A stretch of 64,000 nt of DNA from an uncultured Prevotella sp. (lineage in GTDB: Bacteria; Bacteroidota; Bacteroidia; Bacteroidales; Bacteroidaceae), in assembly GCA_900315835.1 (NCBI GenBank), contig ONAR01000003.1:28725-92724 (forward strand), written 5' to 3'. Below, in pieces: positions 36,492-44,495 of the stretch (position 1 is the stretch's first letter; every line of letters starts with the position of its first letter). Made by a program: the position numbers and the translations under genes. Below the pieces are notes generated by a model. That model worked only from the letters and a program-made list of their open reading frames with translations, searched no databases and was not told the DNA's origin.

Positions 36492-38006
36492 ATGCCCGAA
36501 CAAAATCATTCCAATAGTACCCGTCAGCGCCGTAAGACTTCGACGCCCATTGACCCGAGCTTCGGCCATCTGCAGCCACAAGCCACTGATATAGAGAAGG
36601 TGGTGCTGGGTGCACTGATGATAGACAAAGATGCTTTCTCTGTGGTCTCAGACATGCTCTCGCCCGACAGCTTCTATGAGCCCCGCCATCAAAAGATATT
36701 CCAAGCCATTCAGGAACTCAACCTCGAGGAGAATCCGGTCGACATCATGACCGTGACCAACCAACTCATGAAGGATGGCACCCTCGACGAGGTGGGTGGA
36801 CCCGCGTATGTTGTTGACCTCTCCTCACACGTGGCTTCGTCGGCGCATATTGAGTATCATGCGAAGATTCTGCAGCAGAAATACATTGCCCGACAGCTCA
36901 TCTCCTTCGCCAGCGTCATCGAGACGAAGGCTTTCGACCCGATGATTGACACCGACGAACTGATGCAGGAGGCCGAGAGCTCGCTCTTCGAGATCTCTCA
37001 GAAGAATATGCAGCAGGACTACACCCAGATTGACCCGGTGCTGGCTCAGGCGGTGAAGATCATGGAGAATGCATCATCCAACAAGACGGGTCTGACGGGT
37101 ATCCCCTCGGGCTTCCATAAGTTGGACGCCATCACCTCGGGTTGGCAGAAGAGTGACCTCATCATTATCGCCGGTCGCCCGGCCATGGGTAAGACCTCGT
37201 TCGCGCTCTCCATCGCCAAGAATGTGGCCATCGACTATCAGATACCCGTTGCGTTCTTCTCTTTGGAGATGAACAATGTGCAGCTGGTCAACCGATTGAT
37301 TTCCAATGTGTGTGAGATTGACGGTAAGAAAGTAATGAACGGTCAGCTGTCGAAAGAGGAGTGGGCCCGCTTGGATAAGAGCGTGCGCAAGATGATGGGT
37401 AAGCCGCTTTACATCGATGAGACGCCGGGTATGTCGATTTTCGAACTGCGTACGAAGGCCCGCCGACTGGTGCGTGAGAAAGGTGTGCAGTTGATTATGA
37501 TTGACTACCTGCAGCTGATGAACGCCAGCGGTGCGCGCTTCGGCAACCGTCAGGAGGAGGTCTCCACCATCTCGCGGTCGCTGAAGCAGTTGGCCAAGGA
37601 ACTCGACATCCCCATCATCGCCCTCTCGCAGTTGAACCGTTCGGTAGAGACGCGTGACTCCAATCTCGAAGCCAAGCGGCCGCAGTTGAGCGACCTGCGT
37701 GAGTCGGGAGCCATTGAGCAGGATGCCGATATGGTGATGTTCGTGCACCGCCCTGAATACTACCATCTGCTGCAAGACGAGAAAGGCAACGACCTGCGGG
37801 GTAAAGCGCAGATCATCATCGCCAAGCACCGTAAGGGCGCTACCGGCGATGTGTTGCTCGCCTTCGAGGGGCAGTATACGCGCTTCTCCAACATCGAGGA
37901 TGTCTCTACGCCTTCGATTGACAGCGGCTTCGGCGGTGAGATTGTGAGCTCACGCCTCAATCAGGAGGATCCGCTGAGTCCACAAGACGTCACGACGCCG
38001 TTCTAA
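36492..38006 (+). CDS. dnaB: Replicative DNA helicase DnaB
   Basis: 504 residues. N-terminal DnaB domain (EKVVLGALMIDKDAFS) and C-terminal RecA-like domain with Walker A GRPAMGKTSFAL, Walker B MIDYLQLM, and ESGAIEQDADMVMFVHRP. No intein is visible. A -7 element TAAATTTG lies at 36434-36441. Downstream comes the leu leader. Confidence 0.96.
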   Translation: MPEQNHSNSTRQRRKTSTPIDPSFGHLQPQATDIEKVVLGALMIDKDAFSVVSDMLSPDSFYEPRHQKIFQAIQELNLEENPVDIMTVTNQLMKDGTLDEVGGPAYVVDLSSHVASSAHIEYHAKILQQKYIARQLISFASVIETKAFDPMIDTDELMQEAESSLFEISQKNMQQDYTQIDPVLAQAVKIMENASSNKTGLTGIPSGFHKLDAITSGWQKSDLIIIAGRPAMGKTSFALSIAKNVAIDYQIPVAFFSLEMNNVQLVNRLISNVCEIDGKKVMNGQLSKEEWARLDKSVRKMMGKPLYIDETPGMSIFELRTKARRLVREKGVQLIMIDYLQLMNASGARFGNRQEEVSTISRSLKQLAKELDIPIIALSQLNRSVETRDSNLEAKRPQLSDLRESGAIEQDADMVMFVHRPEYYHLLQDEKGNDLRGKAQIIIAKHRKGATGDVLLAFEGQYTRFSNIEDVSTPSIDSGFGGEIVSSRLNQEDPLSPQDVTTPF

Positions 38007-38092: not shown

Positions 38093-38123
38093 TTTGGTAG
38101 CTCATATTTATTATATAACTTTG
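38093..38123 (+). promoter_or_regulatory. Promoter of the leu operon
   Basis: TTTG (38093-38096), 19 bp, TAACTTTG (38116-38123). The expected start near 38130 is about 10 bases before the leader peptide ATG. This is the best-placed promoter in the window. Confidence 0.85.
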
Positions 38124-38139
38124 CAACCGAAAATAATAA

Positions 38140-38238
38140 ATGAACACAATGATTGCATTATACGCCATCCTGAGCATTATTATTAGCATTCGACTGCGGA
38201 AGGTAGCCGGAAGTGAGATGGCGTGTGTGCATGTTTAA
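38140..38238 (+). CDS. leuL: Leu operon leader peptide (attenuator peptide), 32 residues
   Basis: The frame from ATG 38140 to TAA 38236-38238 gives MNTMIALYAILSIIISIRLR (first 20 of 32). Six Ile, three Leu and three Val make up 12 of the 32 residues, including three consecutive Ile codons ATT at 38176-38184. It lies right after a promoter and before an antiterminator and terminator, in front of leuA. A ribosome stalled at the Ile run would sit upstream of 38207, leaving the antiterminator arm free; a ribosome at the stop codon would cover it. The symbol leuL is by analogy. Confidence 0.85.
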   Translation: MNTMIALYAILSIIISIRLRKVAGSEMACVHV

Positions 38239-38292
38239 GAAGATATTGCATGATAAAGCCTTTCCACTTCCGGTAAGTGGAAAGGCTTTTTT
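38207..38292 (+). promoter_or_regulatory. Transcription attenuator of the leu operon
   Basis: The antiterminator arm CCGGAAGTG (38207-38215) is complementary over nine bases to CACTTCCGG (38265-38273), which spans the 3' part of the terminator 5' arm and its loop. The terminator is AAAGCCTTTCCACTT (38255-38269), loop CCGGT, AAGTGGAAAGGCTTT (38275-38289), a perfect 15-bp stem followed by T residues to 38292. The two structures exclude each other. Confidence 0.88.
38255..38292 (+). terminator. Intrinsic terminator within the leu leader
   Basis: Perfect 15-bp stem, 5-base loop and a run of six T. It lies 45 bases upstream of leuA and 17 bases after the leader peptide stop, so it acts as an attenuator rather than as the end of dnaB. 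Confidence 0.93.
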
Positions 38293-38336
38293 AATTGTAG
38301 AACATTAAAACAGAAAGCGAAATAAATTCTTATCTT

Positions 38337-39839
38337 ATGAGCGAAAGACTTTATATTTTTGACACAACCCTTCGTGATGGCGAGCAGGTACCTGGCTGCC
38401 AGTTGAACACAGTGGAAAAGATTCAGGTGGCAAAGCAGTTGGAACTCCTCGGCGTAGATGTTATCGAGGCCGGCTTCCCTATTTCGTCTCCGGGCGATTT
38501 CAATTCGGTGGTTGAGATTTCCAAGGCAGTGACGTGGCCCACCATCTGCGCACTGACGCGCGCGGTGGAGAAAGATATTGACTGCGCCGCTGAAGCACTG
38601 AAATTTGCCAAGCATAAGCGCATCCACACGGGTATCGGAACCAGCGACTACCACATCAAATATAAGTTCAATTCCGACCGCGACGATATCTTGGAGCGTG
38701 CAGTGCGCGCCGTGGCTTACGCCAAGAAGTATGTCGAGGATGTCGAGTTCTATGCAGAGGACGCCGGTCGTACAGACAACGAGTATTTAGCTAAGGTCGT
38801 CGAAGCCGTCATCAAGGCGGGCGCTACGGTGGTCAACATTCCCGATACCACCGGCTACTGCCTGCCGAGCGAATACGGTGCAAAGATCAAGTATCTGAAG
38901 GAGCATGTCGACGGCATCGACAAAGCCATCATCTCCACCCACTGCCACAACGACCTGGGCATGGCCACGGCCAACACCCTCGAGGGTGTGCTCAACGGCG
39001 CCCGCCAGGTGGAGGTTACCGTCAACGGCATCGGTGAGCGCGCAGGCAACACCTCGCTCGAGGAAATCGCCATGATCTTGAAGTGCCACAAGGGTATCGG
39101 CATCGATACCAACATCAATACGAGAAAGATTTATCCCATCTCGCGTATGGTCTCCTCGCTGATGAATATGCCCGTTCAGCCAAACAAAGCCATCGTCGGT
39201 CGCAATGCCTTCGCTCATTCGAGCGGCATCCATCAGGATGGTGTGTTGAAGAATGTGCAGACTTACGAGATTATTGATCCTAAGGATATTGGCTTGGAGA
39301 ACAACGAGATCGTGCTCACTGCCCGCTCCGGTCGCGCTGCGTTGAAGTATCGCCTCGAGGTCAACGGCGTCGACATCAAGGATGAGGACCGCCTTGACAA
39401 GATTTATCAGGAATTCCTCAAGCTCGCCGACAAGAAGAAGGAAATTACCGACGACGACATCCTCGTGCTTGCCGGCGCTGACAAGGCTGCCAACCACTCG
39501 GTGAAGCTCGACTACCTGCAGGTGGTCTCCGGCAAGGATGTGCGCAATGTCGCCTCCATTGGACTCGACATCGCCGGTGAGAAGTTTGAGGAAAGCGCTA
39601 CGGGTAATGGCCCTGTCGACGCTGCCATTAAGGCGTTGAAGCGCATCATCCACAAGCAGATGACGCTGAAGGAATTCACCATTCAAGCCATTACGCAGGG
39701 CTCCGACGACGTCGGTAAGGTTCACATGCAGGTGGAATACGACGGCCACGTCTACTATGGCTTCGGCGCCAACACCGATATCGTAACGGCCTCTGTTGAA
39801 GCTTATCTTGATTGTATTAATAAGTTTAGAAATAAGTAA
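38337..39839 (+). CDS. leuA: 2-isopropylmalate synthase
   Basis: Condenses acetyl-CoA and 2-ketoisovalerate, the first step of leucine synthesis. 500 residues: catalytic TIM barrel with metal/substrate motif [11 protein letters not shown] and the [12 protein letters not shown] site, plus a C-terminal LeuA regulatory domain (from about 385). Full length, so leucine feedback is likely. First structural gene of the operon, 3 bases before leuC. Confidence 0.95.
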
Positions 39840-39842
39840 ACG

Positions 39843-41240
39843 ATGAACACTTTATTCGATAAGATTTGGGATAGCCACGTTGTTCAGATTGTCAAAGATG
39901 GTCCCACACAGCTTTATATCGACCGCCTCTACGGTCATGAAGTCACCACGCCTCAGGCCTTTGAGGGGTTGCGTCAGCGTGGGTTGAAGGTCTTCCGCCC
40001 GAAGCAGAACTTCTTCATGCCCGACCACAATATTCCCACTCACGACCAAGACAAGCCCATCGAGGATCCGATTGGCCGCAAGCAGGTGGAAACCCTCGAC
40101 CGTAACTGCGAGGAGTTTGGCTTGAAGGAGTTTAAGATGAACACTAAAGACAATGGTATCATCCACGTCATCGGTTCGGAGAAGGGCCTTTCCTTACCTG
40201 GTATGACGATTGTCTGCGGCGACTCCCACACCTCTACGCATGGCGCTGTCGGCGCTGTGGCCTTCGGCATCGGTACCTCTGAGGTGGAGATGGTGCTGGC
40301 TTCGCAGTGCATTCTCCAGCAGAAGCCGAAGTCGATGCGTATCAGCATCAACGGCGAACTGAAGCCGGGTGTTACCGCAAAGGATGTTGCCCTCTATCTG
40401 ATGAGTCAGCTGACGACCTCCGGCGCCACCGGTTACTTCGTCGAGTATGCTGGCGATGTGGTGCGTCATCTGTCGATGGATGGTCGTCTGACGCTCTGCA
40501 ACCTCTCCATTGAGATGGGTGCCCGCGGTGGCTTTGTGGCTCCCGACGAGACCACCTTCGAATACCTGAAGGGTCGCGAGTATGCACCCAAGGGCGAGGA
40601 CTGGGATAAGGCTGTGGCTTATTGGAAGACGCTGAAGAGCGGCGACGACGCTGTGTTCGATAAGGAGCTGACATTTGACGCAGCCGACATTGAGCCGCGC
40701 ATTACCTACGGTACCAACCCCGGTATGGGCATCGCCATCACCGGATCGATTCCAACCTTGGATGAGATTGACGACAATGAGAAGGCTTCCTTCGAGAAGA
40801 GCCTCCGCTATATGGGCTTTGAACCGGGTGAGAAGCTGCTCGGTCACCCGATTGACTACGTCTTCCTCGGCGCCTGCACCAATGGCCGCATTGAGGACTT
40901 CCGCGCTTTCACTCAGTTAGTGAAGGGTCATCATAAGGCACCCAACGTGGTGGCTTGGTTGGTTCCCGGTTCGTGGCATGTGCTCGACCAGATTAAAGCC
41001 GAGGGCCTTGACAAAGACCTTGAGGCCGCAGGCTTCGCCATTCGTCAGCCCGGTTGCTCAGCTTGTCTGGCTATGAACGACGATAAAGTGCCCGCTGGCA
41101 AATACTGCGTCTCCACCAGCAACCGCAACTTCGAAGGCCGTCAGGGTCCTGGCAGCCGCACCATTTTGGCTTCGCCGTTAGTGGCAGCCGCAGCCGCCAT
41201 CACCGGCAAAATCACTGATCCAAGGACGTTGTTAGATTGA
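39843..41240 (+). CDS. leuC: 3-isopropylmalate dehydratase large subunit
   Basis: 465 residues, aconitase family. [4Fe-4S] Cys ligands are visible in [10 protein letters not shown] and [25 protein letters not shown] is the substrate loop. Works with LeuD, next in the operon after 17 bases. Confidence 0.96.
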
Positions 41241-41257: not shown

Positions 41258-41851
41258 ATGAAGCAGAAATTCAATGTCATCACATCCAGCTGCATTCCCT
41301 TGCCGCTGGAGAACGTAGATACCGACCAAATCATCCCCGCCCGCTTTCTGAAGGCAACCGATAAGAAAGGCTTTGGCGACAACCTCTTCCGCGACTGGCG
41401 CTATAACAAAGACGGCAGTCTGAAGAAAGACTTCGTGCTCAACGACCCCTCTTACAGCGGCGTCATCCTCGTCGCTGGCAAGAACTTCGGTTCGGGTTCA
41501 TCGCGTGAGCACGCTGCCTGGGCTATTGCCGGCTACGGCTTCCGCGTGGTCATCAGCTCATTCTTCGCTGATATCCACAAGAACAACGAGCTCAACAACT
41601 TCGTTTTACCCGTCGTCGTCAGCGAGCCCTTCCTCAAGGAGCTGTTCGACAGCATTGCCAAAGACCATAAGACGCAGGTCAGGGTTGATTTGCCCAACCA
41701 GACGGTGACCAATCTGGCCACCGGCCATAGTGAGCATTTTGAAATCAACGGCTATAAGAAGCACTGCCTCGAGAATGGTCTCGACGACGTTGACTTCCTC
41801 GTTCAGAATAGAGACAAGGTTGAAGCATGGGAAGCAGCACACGTGAAATAG
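41258..41851 (+). CDS. leuD: 3-isopropylmalate dehydratase small subunit
   Basis: 197 residues from the ATG at 41258 (MKQKFNVITSSCIPL); the frame is open upstream to 41237 within the end of leuC. The swivel-domain motif NFGSGSSREHAAWA is present. Its 3' end overlaps the next gene by 25 bases, so both are translationally linked. Confidence 0.95.
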   Translation: MKQKFNVITSSCIPLPLENVDTDQIIPARFLKATDKKGFGDNLFRDWRYNKDGSLKKDFVLNDPSYSGVILVAGKNFGSGSSREHAAWAIAGYGFRVVISSFFADIHKNNELNNFVLPVVVSEPFLKELFDSIAKDHKTQVRVDLPNQTVTNLATGHSEHFEINGYKKHCLENGLDDVDFLVQNRDKVEAWEAAHVK

Positions 41852-43368
41852 AGATCATGGACTCGACGCTCCGCGATGGTGAACAGACCAACGGAGTGAG
41901 TTTTCTGCCCCATGAGAAGCTGATGATCGCGCGCTACCTGCTCGCTGAAGTGGGTGTCGACCGCATTGAGGTGGCGTCGGCGCGCGTATCTGAAGGCGAG
42001 AAGGGGGCGGTGAGCATGATTTGTAAGTATGCCAAAGACCATGGCATGCTCGACCGCGTGGAGGTGCTTGGCTTCGTCGATGGCAATAAATCGGTCGATT
42101 GGATTGACGAGTGCGGCTGCCGCACCATCAACGTATTGGCTAAAGGTTCACTCCGCCATTGCACCTATCAGCTGAAGAAAACACCTGAGCAACACATTGC
42201 CGACATCAAGGCGGTCATCGACTATGCCCATTCCAAGGGTATGAACGTCAACCTCTATCTCGAGGACTGGTCGCAGGGTATGCGCGACAGCCGCGACTAC
42301 GTATGGCAGATGATGGATGGTTTGAAGGATGAGCACATCAACCGCTTCCTCTTACCTGATACGCTCGGCATCCTCAACCCCGACAACTCCTACGCCTACG
42401 TCAGGGCGATGACTGACCGCTATCCGGGCGTAAAGTTTGAATTCCATGCCCACAACGACTACGACATGGCTGTGGGCAACTCGTTTATGGCTGTTGAAGC
42501 TGGTGCCACTGGTTTGCATGTAACCGTCAATGGCTTGGGTGAGCGCTGTGGCAATGCGCCGCTGAGCAGCATCCATGTCATGCTCAAGGACCAGATGCAT
42601 GTGGCCGACCACATCGATGAATCCACGTTGATGGAAATCAGCAATATCGTGGCTGGCTACAGCGGCATTGGTTATTCACCCAATACGCCGGTCATCGGCG
42701 AGAATGTCTTTACGCAAGTGGCTGGCGTTCACGCTGATGGCGATAATAAGGCCCACCTCTACAGCAACGCGCTGGTGCCTGAGCGCTTCGGCCGCCACCG
42801 TGAGTTTGCATTGGGAAAGAACTCGGGTAAGGCCAATATCATCCGCAACTTAGCCGACTTAGGCCTTGAGCTCACCAAGGAGCAGACGCAGGCTGTCACC
42901 CGACGCATCACTGAGTTGGGCGACCGCAAGCAACTGGTCACGCAAGATGATTTGCCATATATCGTCAGCGATGTGTTGAAGCATTCTTCACCGAAGCAGC
43001 GCGTCAAACTGGTTAGCTACATGGTCTCAACGAGTTATGGCTTGAAGCCGATAGCCAGCTTGAAGATTCAGATCAATGGTAAAGAGTATGAGGCCGACTC
43101 CACTGGCGACGGTCAATACGATGCCTTTGTGAAGGCCCTGCGTAAGGTCTACAAAGAGAATCTCGACCGCACCTTCCCTCTGCTGCAGAACTACGCCGTT
43201 ACCATCCCCCCCGGCGGCCACACCGATGCCTTGGTGCAGACGGTCATTACGTGGAACGACGGCGAGAAGCAGTGGCGTACGCGTGGACTGGATGCAGACC
43301 AGACGGAGGCCGCTATTCAGGCTACCATCAAGATGCTGAATATGATAGAAGATGAAAACAACAATTAA
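41827..43368 (+). CDS. Second 2-isopropylmalate/citramalate synthase-like protein
   Basis: 513 residues of the same DRE-TIM family as Leu[42 protein letters not shown], and a C-terminal LeuA-type regulatory domain (about 400-510). It is clearly diverged from leuA in the same operon. Candidate function: (R)-citramalate synthase (pyruvate plus acetyl-CoA), which would let leuBCD also make 2-ketobutyrate for isoleucine; the Ile-rich leader supports this but does not prove it. The start at 41827 overlaps leuD; Met at 41857 is a weaker alternative because it would cut the conserved beta strand. Confidence 0.85.
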
Positions 43369-43406: not shown

Positions 43407-43433
43407 CATCGGCTCTTACTAACAACAATTCAA

Positions 43434-44495
43434 ATGAAACTCAAAATTGCAGTTTTGCCGGGCGACGGTATAGGACCGGAGATTATGCCTCAGGCTATCA
43501 ATGTGTTGAACGTTGTGGCGAAGAAGTTCGGCCACGAGTTTACTTATAAGGAAGCCATCTGCGGTGCCCATGGCATCGATGCTTGTGGCGACCCCTTCCC
43601 CGATGAGACTTTCAAGACATGTATGGATGCTGACGCCGTGCTCTTTGCCGCTGTCGGCGACCCCCGTTTCGACAACAATCCCACGTTGAAGGTGCGCCCT
43701 GAGACCGGTCTGCTGGCCATGCGCAAGAAGCTCGGTCTCTTTGCCAATGTGCGTCCTGTAGCCACATTCGACTGCCTGCTTCATAAGAGCCCGCTGAAGG
43801 AAGAGCTCATCAAAGGCGCCGACTTCGTCGTTATCCGCGAGCTGACGGGTGGAATGTATTTCGGCGAGAAGTATCAGGACAATGAGAAGGCTTACGATAC
43901 CGACATCTATTATCGCCCTGAGATTGAGCGTATTCTGAAGGTTGCCTTCGACTTCGCCATGCGCCGCAACAAGCATCTGACCGTCGTCGACAAGGCTAAT
44001 GTATTGGCCAGCTCGCGTCTGTGGCGTCAGATTGCCAAGGAGATGGAACCAAAGTATCCTGAGGTTAAGGTTGACTATATGTTCATCGATAATGCTTCGA
44101 TGCGCGTGTTGACCGAGCCCCGCTTCTTCGATGTGATTGTAACCGAGAACACCTTCGGCGATATCCTCACCGATGAGACTAGCGCCATCACTGGCTCTAT
44201 GGGTTTGCAGCCGTCGGCTTCATTGGGTGAGCATACGCCGCTCTTCGAGCCGGTGCATGGCTCATGGCCGCAGGCTGCCGGCAAGAATATTGCCAACCCG
44301 TTGGCTGAGATTCTGTCTGCCGCTATGCTGTTGGAGCACTTCGGTCTCAAGGAAGAGGGTGCTGCCATTCGCAAGGCCTGCGATGCAAGTTTGGAGCAAA
44401 ACGTTCGTACACCTGAGATTCAGGTTGAGGGCGGCGCTCAATACGGCACCAAGGAAGTAGGCGAGTGGATTGCCAATTACATCGACCAGCACTAA
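43434..44495 (+). CDS. leuB: 3-isopropylmalate dehydrogenase
   Basis: 353 residues from the ATG at 43434 ([17 protein letters not shown]); an in-frame ATG at 43395 would include the palindrome. [24 protein letters not shown] and the [19 protein letters not shown] block are all LeuB typical. Last gene of the leu operon. A weak hairpin (44518-44555) follows. Confidence 0.96.

Follow-up and report, generated by a model that had tools for sequence, protein, structure and literature searches.

A predicted leader-peptide transcription attenuator before the leucine operon of an uncultured Prevotella sp., with relatives across Bacteroidota

Background

The window (the whole stretch of DNA analysed, 64,000 nucleotides from an uncultured Prevotella sp.) carries a leucine operon downstream of dnaB (36492-38006, plus strand). 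Between dnaB and leuA there are 330 nt without a long plus-strand gene. Do the short reading frame and the hairpin found there control the operon, or do they belong to something else? Sensing of amino-acid supply at the biosynthetic operons of Bacteroidota is little described in the literature searched. In 2010 a passage of one paper stated that leader-peptide systems had been demonstrated in Proteobacteria and Actinobacteria alone, and it added Firmicutes (PMC2965389). A study of B. thetaiotaomicron refers in one passage to small open reading frames (sORFs) reminiscent of leader peptides (PMC7366714).

A preliminary description of the locus read it as a leader-peptide attenuator that would be unusual for the phylum. 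The analysis presented here supports that reading, which was made from the sequence alone, and indicates that the rarity was overstated. Judged from sequence comparison, the element in the window very likely attenuates transcription of the leu operon by way of a ribosome that translates a leader peptide.

The leucine operon and its leader

The genes that directly follow the leader are, in order, leuA-leuC-leuD-(citramalate synthase-like)-leuB, all on the plus strand. leuA (38337..39839) encodes 2-isopropylmalate synthase (IPMS; NCBIfam NF002086, 743.9 bits; TIGR00973, 677.1 bits) and is very probably the gene that the leader element is predicted to regulate. It is followed by leuC (39843..41240; TIGR00170, 637.2 bits), leuD (41258..41851; TIGR00171, 185.5 bits) and, beyond one further gene, leuB (43431..44495; TIGR00169, 441.2 bits), and all of these scores exceed the cut-offs. 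The gene in between (41827..43368) overlaps leuD and is a second member of the IPMS family, probably a citramalate synthase. Its best NCBIfam match is NF042433 (CimA) at 615.2 bits, under the cut-off of 950; the best IPMS model gives 354.6 bits, far under the CimA score, and the product is 27% identical to LeuA. The citramalate route leads to the isoleucine precursor branch. Since this gene scores best as citramalate synthase, the operon probably feeds isoleucine as well as leucine.

A candidate promoter, read from the sequence, lies at 38093..38123 on the plus strand and consists of TTTG (38093-38096), a 19-nt spacer and TAACTTTG (38116-38123). The preliminary description counted the non-sigma70 promoter among what made the case unusual; TTTG / TAnnTTTG is what we take to be the ordinary promoter consensus of Bacteroidota. 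TAnnTTTG stands within 110 nt upstream of 42 of the 46 leaders examined (rate in shuffled sequences, 9%), and TTTG-N18..22-TAnnTTTG upstream of 40 of the 46 (shuffled, 0.2%). These 46 belong to the 47 leaders compared below; L071 was left out, its upstream sequence being too short as scored.

The leader peptide ORF (38140..38238, plus strand; stop codon 38236-38238) has 32 codons and reads MNTMIALYAILSIIISIRLRKVAGSEMACVHV. Six Ile, three Leu and three Val make up 12 branched-chain residues, and three consecutive Ile codons stand at 38176-38184. The window's leader ORF has no Shine-Dalgarno-like motif upstream, and GGAG, GAGG or AGGA is found at -18 to -4 in only one of 46 leaders examined. The leader ORF alone is not decisive, because 3 of the 547 short ATG ORFs in the six frames of the window, the leader ORF included, have an Ile-Ile-Ile run together with at least 37% Ile, Leu and Val (ILV).

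The control codons Ile Ile Ile Ser Ile Arg Leu occupy 38176..38196 (plus strand). Counted from the first base of the last Leu codon, the GGAAGTG core (at 38209) is 15 nt downstream. This core is part of the antiterminator arm GCCGGAAGTG (38206..38215, plus strand), which pairs with 38265..38274 on the same strand, within the 5' arm and loop of the terminator. Nine bases of the arm, CCGGAAGTG (38207-38215), are the exact reverse complement of CACTTCCGG (38265-38273). The intrinsic terminator (38255..38292, plus strand) has a perfect 15-bp stem and a 5-nt loop (38255-38289) followed by a T-tract. A possible protector stem enclosing the arm (38154..38237, plus strand), in which 38154-38169 would pair with part of 38217-38237, is not universal and is uncertain here. 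The 2.96-Mb genome to which the window belongs has a single location with the pattern GGAAGTG-N20..50-CACTTCC, and the arm-partner duplex is matched by 1 of 200 shuffled upstream sequences. Thus the parts named in the preliminary description, that is, promoter, 32-codon frame with 12 branched-chain residues and three Ile codons, 9-base arm complementary to part of the terminator, perfect 15-bp stem and T-tract, are all present in 38093-38292.

The layout predicts the following course of events. RNA polymerase would start just downstream of 38123 and transcribe the leader ORF with a ribosome trailing it. A shortage of charged tRNA-Ile (and Leu) would stall the ribosome at the Ile/Leu codons of 38176-38196 with its front edge short of 38206, leaving the arm (38206-38215) free. 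The free arm could pair with 38265-38274 once these bases are made, the terminator would be prevented, and leuACD-cimA-leuB would be transcribed. When the tRNAs are charged, the ribosome would cross the arm to the stop codon, which in the window means the space between the two arms; the arm would be kept from its partner, the 15-bp terminator would form and transcription would end near 38292. Read-through dependent on amino-acid supply is predicted from this leader layout. Isoleucine may be the main signal because the operon's probable citramalate synthase would feed the isoleucine branch.

Conservation and covariation in relatives

The comparison with relatives gives the strongest evidence. 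A contig scan with LeuA gave 80 loci, 79 of them with usable upstream sequence (L082 has 2 nt). The preliminary description had looked to relatives for a conserved Ile/Leu-rich frame with a covarying antiterminator and terminator, and the comparison is positive: the same series of parts, scored by script and by eye, is found at 46 of the 79 leuA loci. The element was not seen, as scored, at the other 33, including L003, which has the closest LeuA among the contigs scanned. Since these 33 loci, L003 among them, have none as scored, the leu operon can do without the element.

The comparison set consists of the window and the 46 relatives (47 leaders). The 46 loci were chosen partly by the arm and terminator motifs, and the leader ORFs by ILV content. 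Because the motifs partly guided the choice, the set leans towards pairing, and the following figures are to be read with this in mind: in the antiterminator (nine pairs) 91.9% of 383 cells are paired and 8 of the 9 pairs change on both sides, and in the terminator 92.0% of 510 cells are paired and 10 of 11 pairs change on both sides. The counts by covariance model and by genus given below are less affected by this choice. When the partner of the antiterminator arm is slid, pairing falls to 36-62%. Covarying antiterminators are seen, for example, in L053 (GGTAGTAAGA/TCTTGCTACC) and in L044. None of 500 shuffles reaches the antiterminator covariation by any of five measures, and single-duplex shuffle p is weak in L007 (0.18), L052 (0.25), L058 (0.56), L059 (0.395) and L068 (0.19); as the sequences are related, neither these shuffle counts nor the p-values can be read as probabilities. 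Applied to the entire alignment, RNAalifold recovered part of the terminator alone (7 pairs), so that the antiterminator was counted as a named structure. Terminator positions were set by hand; an automatic search over 81 upstream stretches chose wrong hairpins in several. Note that the ORFs of L006, L039, L043 and L081 probably begin further downstream than scored, that the arm of L079 is uncertain, and that L040 is misaligned in the 47-sequence alignment yet was kept in the counts.

Leaders of Prevotella-like genomes are of the type IIIRIRL..VGS(V/E/D), those of Bacteroides of the type ILLCGIIILLA..GSE, and those of other relatives end in NRK stop or DRK stop. The bases of the arm are read in two frames, either as Gly-Ser-Glu/Asp or as Arg/Lys-Lys-stop, with the TGA stop inside GGAAGTGAG. 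Because the arm nucleotides are kept though they are read in two frames, selection at the arm appears to act on the RNA.

Folding of the leader

For 38093-38300 the predicted folding energy is -61.5 kcal/mol (z = -4.49), a value that none of 200 shuffles reaches; the minimum-free-energy fold contains the protector-like stem. When the window leader is folded without the 3' arm of the terminator, the antiterminator arm pairs with its partner and not with the protector. In 30 of the 47 leaders, not including that of the window, the naked leader pairs most of the arm with its own bases (protector fold), and there is no universal protector helix across the 47.

A predicted structure was counted as formed at five or more expected pairs. 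With the arm free and the 3' arm of the terminator not yet made, the antiterminator is predicted in 47/47 leaders; with the arm covered, the terminator is predicted in 46/47. In the full RNA at equilibrium with the arm free, the terminator is formed in 37/47 and the antiterminator in 12/47. Since equilibrium favours the terminator in most sequences, the decision of such a switch must be kinetic and fall during RNA synthesis.

Control codons and stop position

If a ribosome operates the switch, control codons and stop codon should keep particular distances from the arm. A rule picked the leader ORFs: it required three ILV residues in a row and a stop codon no more than 14 nt upstream of the arm and no further downstream than the terminator. 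Part of their ILV richness is there by construction; the ORF of L008 was set by hand for the geometry but not for the codon-choice counts. The rule succeeds in 47/47 real leaders (all ATG) and in 312/1880 shuffled ones (149 with ATG). In the 47 leaders the share of Ile, Leu and Val is 0.77, 0.81, 0.89, 0.64 and 0.77 at -27, -24, -21, -18 and -15 nt from the arm, and next to the arm it is 0.13 at -12 and 0.04 at -9. Measured from the arm start, their stop codons range from -5 to +30 nt and cluster at +5 and at +18 to +22. The ORFs that the rule picks in shuffled sequence show an even ILV share (0.33-0.46 throughout -27 to -9), and their stops are scattered from -14 to +54. The rule therefore does not account for the ILV peak, for its fall ahead of the arm or for the narrow spread of the stops.

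The size of the ribosome footprint underlies the reading of these distances. A ribosome stalled at the last control codon would reach about the edge of the arm, and the proposed geometry, with control codons before the arm and the stop shortly before or beyond its start, fits all 47 sequences. One detail has to be amended. It had been proposed that full translation covers the arm. This holds for most relatives, in which a ribosome at the stop codon would cover it; in the window and a few other leaders (stop at +26 to +30) the ribosome would come to rest between the two arms, where it should still block pairing.

Codon choice also bears on the control region. Leu is kept at -18 and -15 while its codons vary among CTA, CTG, CTC, CTT and TTG. 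Because Leu is kept through five codons, selection in this region appears to act on the peptide. Ile is encoded by ATT in 172 of 224 cases in the leaders and in 694 of 1892 in 46 leuA genes, and Leu by CTA in 67 of 209 (32%) and 28 of 1486 (1.9%), respectively. The leader of the window has no CTA codon; its control codons are mainly ATT.

These observations bear on whether the leader RNA itself might sense an amino acid or uncharged tRNA, as a riboswitch or T-box does, or bind a protein, with the ORF being incidental. Conserved RNA around the arm and terminator and the strong structure would suit such a sensor, yet what is conserved includes codons for the matching amino acids, the Leu codons being synonymously changed, and the position of the stop. 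Among 4227 Rfam families none matches the window over its gathering score, and even at E up to 10 the leader has weak matches alone, far below gathering scores. Nor does any family match the leaders of 20 relatives scanned at gathering score; the one riboswitch found there is a separate SAM element at L203. Direct sensing by the RNA is therefore very improbable.

Distribution and linkage to leuA

Of the 47 sequences, 41 went into a covariance model, R1 (L022, L025, L026, L040, L058 and L064 were omitted). In the genome of the window it scores 85.4 bits at the element and 27.0 bits at the next place, excluding the same terminator read backwards. In the family sample R1 matches at E <= 0.01 in 185 of 301 genomes, in 114 of 169 good genomes and in 25 of 30 genera; leuA is found at E <= 1e-150 in 243 of the 301. 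Among the matches listed with at least 64.6 bits (n = 84), at least 72 lie upstream of leuA, and in 71 of these the gap is no more than 80 nt. Ten of the other 12 are in genomes whose leuA lies beyond the matches listed; G234 has a second R1 place with its leuA elsewhere, and G266 is an incomplete genome without a leuA match. In contig G074:C21 the element (1161-1276) and leuA (2602) are 1325 nt apart, whereas the gap in the other 71 never exceeds 80 nt.

Within the genus of the window, 22 genomes were sampled. Element and leuA (E <= 1e-100) occur together in 12, and neither occurs in 10. Near-complete genus members without leuA are G056, G092, G136, G178, G192, G206, G258, G270, G291 and G299; as these 10 near-complete genomes have no leuA match at E <= 1e-100, leucine synthesis seems patchy in the genus. 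In Bacteroidales at large, R1 is found at E <= 0.001 in 106 of 392 genomes and 63 of 204 genera, and in a sample of the phylum in 29 of 392 genomes, 23 of them outside the order.

Related leaders before other biosynthetic genes

Many further matches precede genes of other amino-acid pathways. The 20 weaker family matches picked lie before ilvD (17) and leuA (3). In other families of the order, 44 picked matches at 39 loci, mostly second or weaker ones, lie before ilvD (30), leuA (10), trpE (1) and cysJ (1), and two (L155 on the plus strand, and L161) were rejected as chance matches. Outside the order, 21 matches in 20 of the 23 genomes lie before ilvE or ilvD (7), trpE (3), thrA (2), the acetolactate synthase small subunit (1) and O-acetylhomoserine/O-acetylserine (OAH/OAS) sulfhydrylase (1), and seven (L198, L204, L206, L209, L211, L213 and L214) were rejected as chance. 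Ten of the downstream genes were checked by NCBIfam and two also by Pfam; the other gene names rest on first residues. NCBIfam supports TrpE, CysJ, OAH/OAS sulfhydrylase, aspartate kinase-homoserine dehydrogenase, IlvE and IlvD, and Pfam only the acetolactate synthase small subunit.

The codons of these leaders change with the pathway. Over the last 22 residues, the mean share of Val is 0.189 in ilvD leaders and 0.043 in leuA leaders (rank test, p 2.7e-13, relatedness ignored), and VV is present in 37/45 and 5/47, respectively. Ile (0.171 vs 0.194) and Leu (0.168 vs 0.191) are similar, so that Val alone separates the two sets clearly. The ilvD set comprises 45 of 47 matches, L127 and L159 being dropped as copies of L126 and L158. 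Val-rich ilvD leaders are seen in many Bacteroidales (L123-L139, L145-L183), e.g., MNLHTSINLAVLHIIRVVVVASRA, and many of these have the arm's partner in the lower part of the terminator. Two tandem attenuators before a single operon, each with a leader frame and a terminator of its own, are seen at L156, L162 and L163 (ilvD) and at L205 (ilvE-ilvD). In the genome of the window, the attenuator expected before ilvD (G000:C26:57339, L144) was not seen; a promoter-like TACCTTTG ends 24 nt before the start codon of this gene.

Other amino acids are represented as well. At L197, L201, L207 and L157 runs of 2-4 Trp codons and a terminator precede trpE. L210 and L212 have Thr/Ile-rich leaders (MNFIITTTTISTTTTISSCRKVCL; MTINNTIITTIITTGIKDGGR) and terminators before bifunctional aspartate kinase-homoserine dehydrogenase. 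At L172 a Cys/Met-rich leader, MNFTTSVNMTTCSTNMMMCMCCGSFLQKERS (match 393-498), and a terminator are followed by cysJ of assimilatory sulfite reductase from 819. At L203 a Cys/Met-rich leader, MKFSKPNTACKPACTCMCMCMMCT (385-494), is followed by a SAM riboswitch (537-659, 70.6 bits), and both precede the OAH/OAS sulfhydrylase gene, which starts at 779.

Could the hairpin in the window simply be an ordinary terminator, of dnaB or of an independent small gene, with leuA having its own start and no regulation taking place? dnaB lies upstream on the same strand and no plus-strand terminator was called between its end at 38006 and the leader, and the 33 leuA loci without the element would agree with such a dispensable part. 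In the window, however, the sequence from the terminator to leuA has no TAnnTTTG that could serve a separate start. A covarying antiterminator and pathway-matched control codons would have no reason to exist beside an ordinary terminator, and the element tracks leuA in the genus and is found before ilvD as well as leuA. This explanation is thus highly unlikely. Equally remote is a leader ORF whose small product has a function of its own, for instance in trans, and whose messenger the hairpins would terminate or protect: the Gly-Ser-Glu/Asp C-terminus does recur in many leaders, but this tail is the arm nucleotides in one frame, read as Arg/Lys-Lys-stop in other relatives, and the rest of the peptide varies and switches to Val, Trp, Thr or Cys/Met by pathway.

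Attenuation by the translating ribosome remains the preferred reading for the window, and its leader combines what marks such attenuators: an amino-acid-rich leader ORF, a terminator before the first gene, an antiterminator that covaries and excludes the terminator, and control codons placed accordingly. The claim that this would be unusual for Bacteroidota does not stand. Same and sibling leaders recur across Bacteroidales (106/392 genomes for the element itself) and elsewhere in the phylum, and for Flavobacterium psychrophilum such control had already been suggested (PMC9723704). The mechanism seems widespread in Bacteroidota, as far as leader layouts tell, and hardly described in the literature searched. 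We consider it somewhat probable that leader-peptide attenuation is general for amino-acid biosynthesis throughout the phylum, one mutable family serving leu and ilv in Bacteroidales and the same layout serving ilvE-ilvD, trpE, thrA, cysJ and OAH/OAS sulfhydrylase across the phylum, with tandem copies in some cases and in one case combined with a SAM riboswitch. If this is true, the leading ribosome has to stay close behind RNA polymerase though the leaders start without Shine-Dalgarno motifs, and the attenuator predicts close coupling of transcription and translation where such motifs are absent. With the attenuator and its covariance model, the sensing of amino-acid supply becomes testable in gut and rumen species, and the response of each operon to a given amino acid can be predicted; the element is a candidate Rfam family.

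Comparison with known systems

No description of the leu/ilv element was found in the literature searched, most subscription journals being outside its reach. Bacteroid-trp RNA (RF01692) is given as a likely cis-regulatory RNA of Bacteroidetes in Table 1 of one paper (PMC2864571). Its name implies trp genes. Unlike the window element, it has no match in the genome of the window (E <= 0.001), and none was found at gathering score in four trpE loci (three from the phylum sample, one from the order).

For F. psychrophilum a transcriptome study reports strong indications of leader-peptide attenuation upstream of amino-acid operons (PMC9723704). Phylum and proposed mechanism are the same, and some of the new 5' elements there are said to have no Rfam hits; the section in question speaks of the attenuators in general terms, mentions pheA and hisG elements as conserved and has no leu element of Bacteroidales (PMC9723704). 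The ilvB-II uORF of Corynebacterium, as described in part of one paper, is ILV-rich and followed by a terminator and a complementary antiterminator, and stalling is predicted to favour read-through (PMC11109978). This is, by its description, a similar layout in another phylum and before another gene.

A counterpart in function is leuL of Escherichia coli and Salmonella, summarised in a passage of one paper as a short leader with adjacent Leu control codons and competing antiterminator and terminator (PMC3783181). The likeness lies in a leader with Leu control codons before leu genes and in the choice between antiterminator and terminator. In the Salmonella leu attenuator the control codons are CUA, and according to the part of the report concerned their replacement by CUG lowered sensitivity (PMC1183508). 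The leaders of the relatives also prefer CTA, which the window's own leader does not contain. In contrast to leuL, the leaders described here have a Bacteroidota promoter, mostly no Shine-Dalgarno-like motif and no Rfam match. Their Ile (ATT) codons come first and Leu codons after, and the antiterminator arm falls within the leader ORF or overlaps the stop codon of this ORF.
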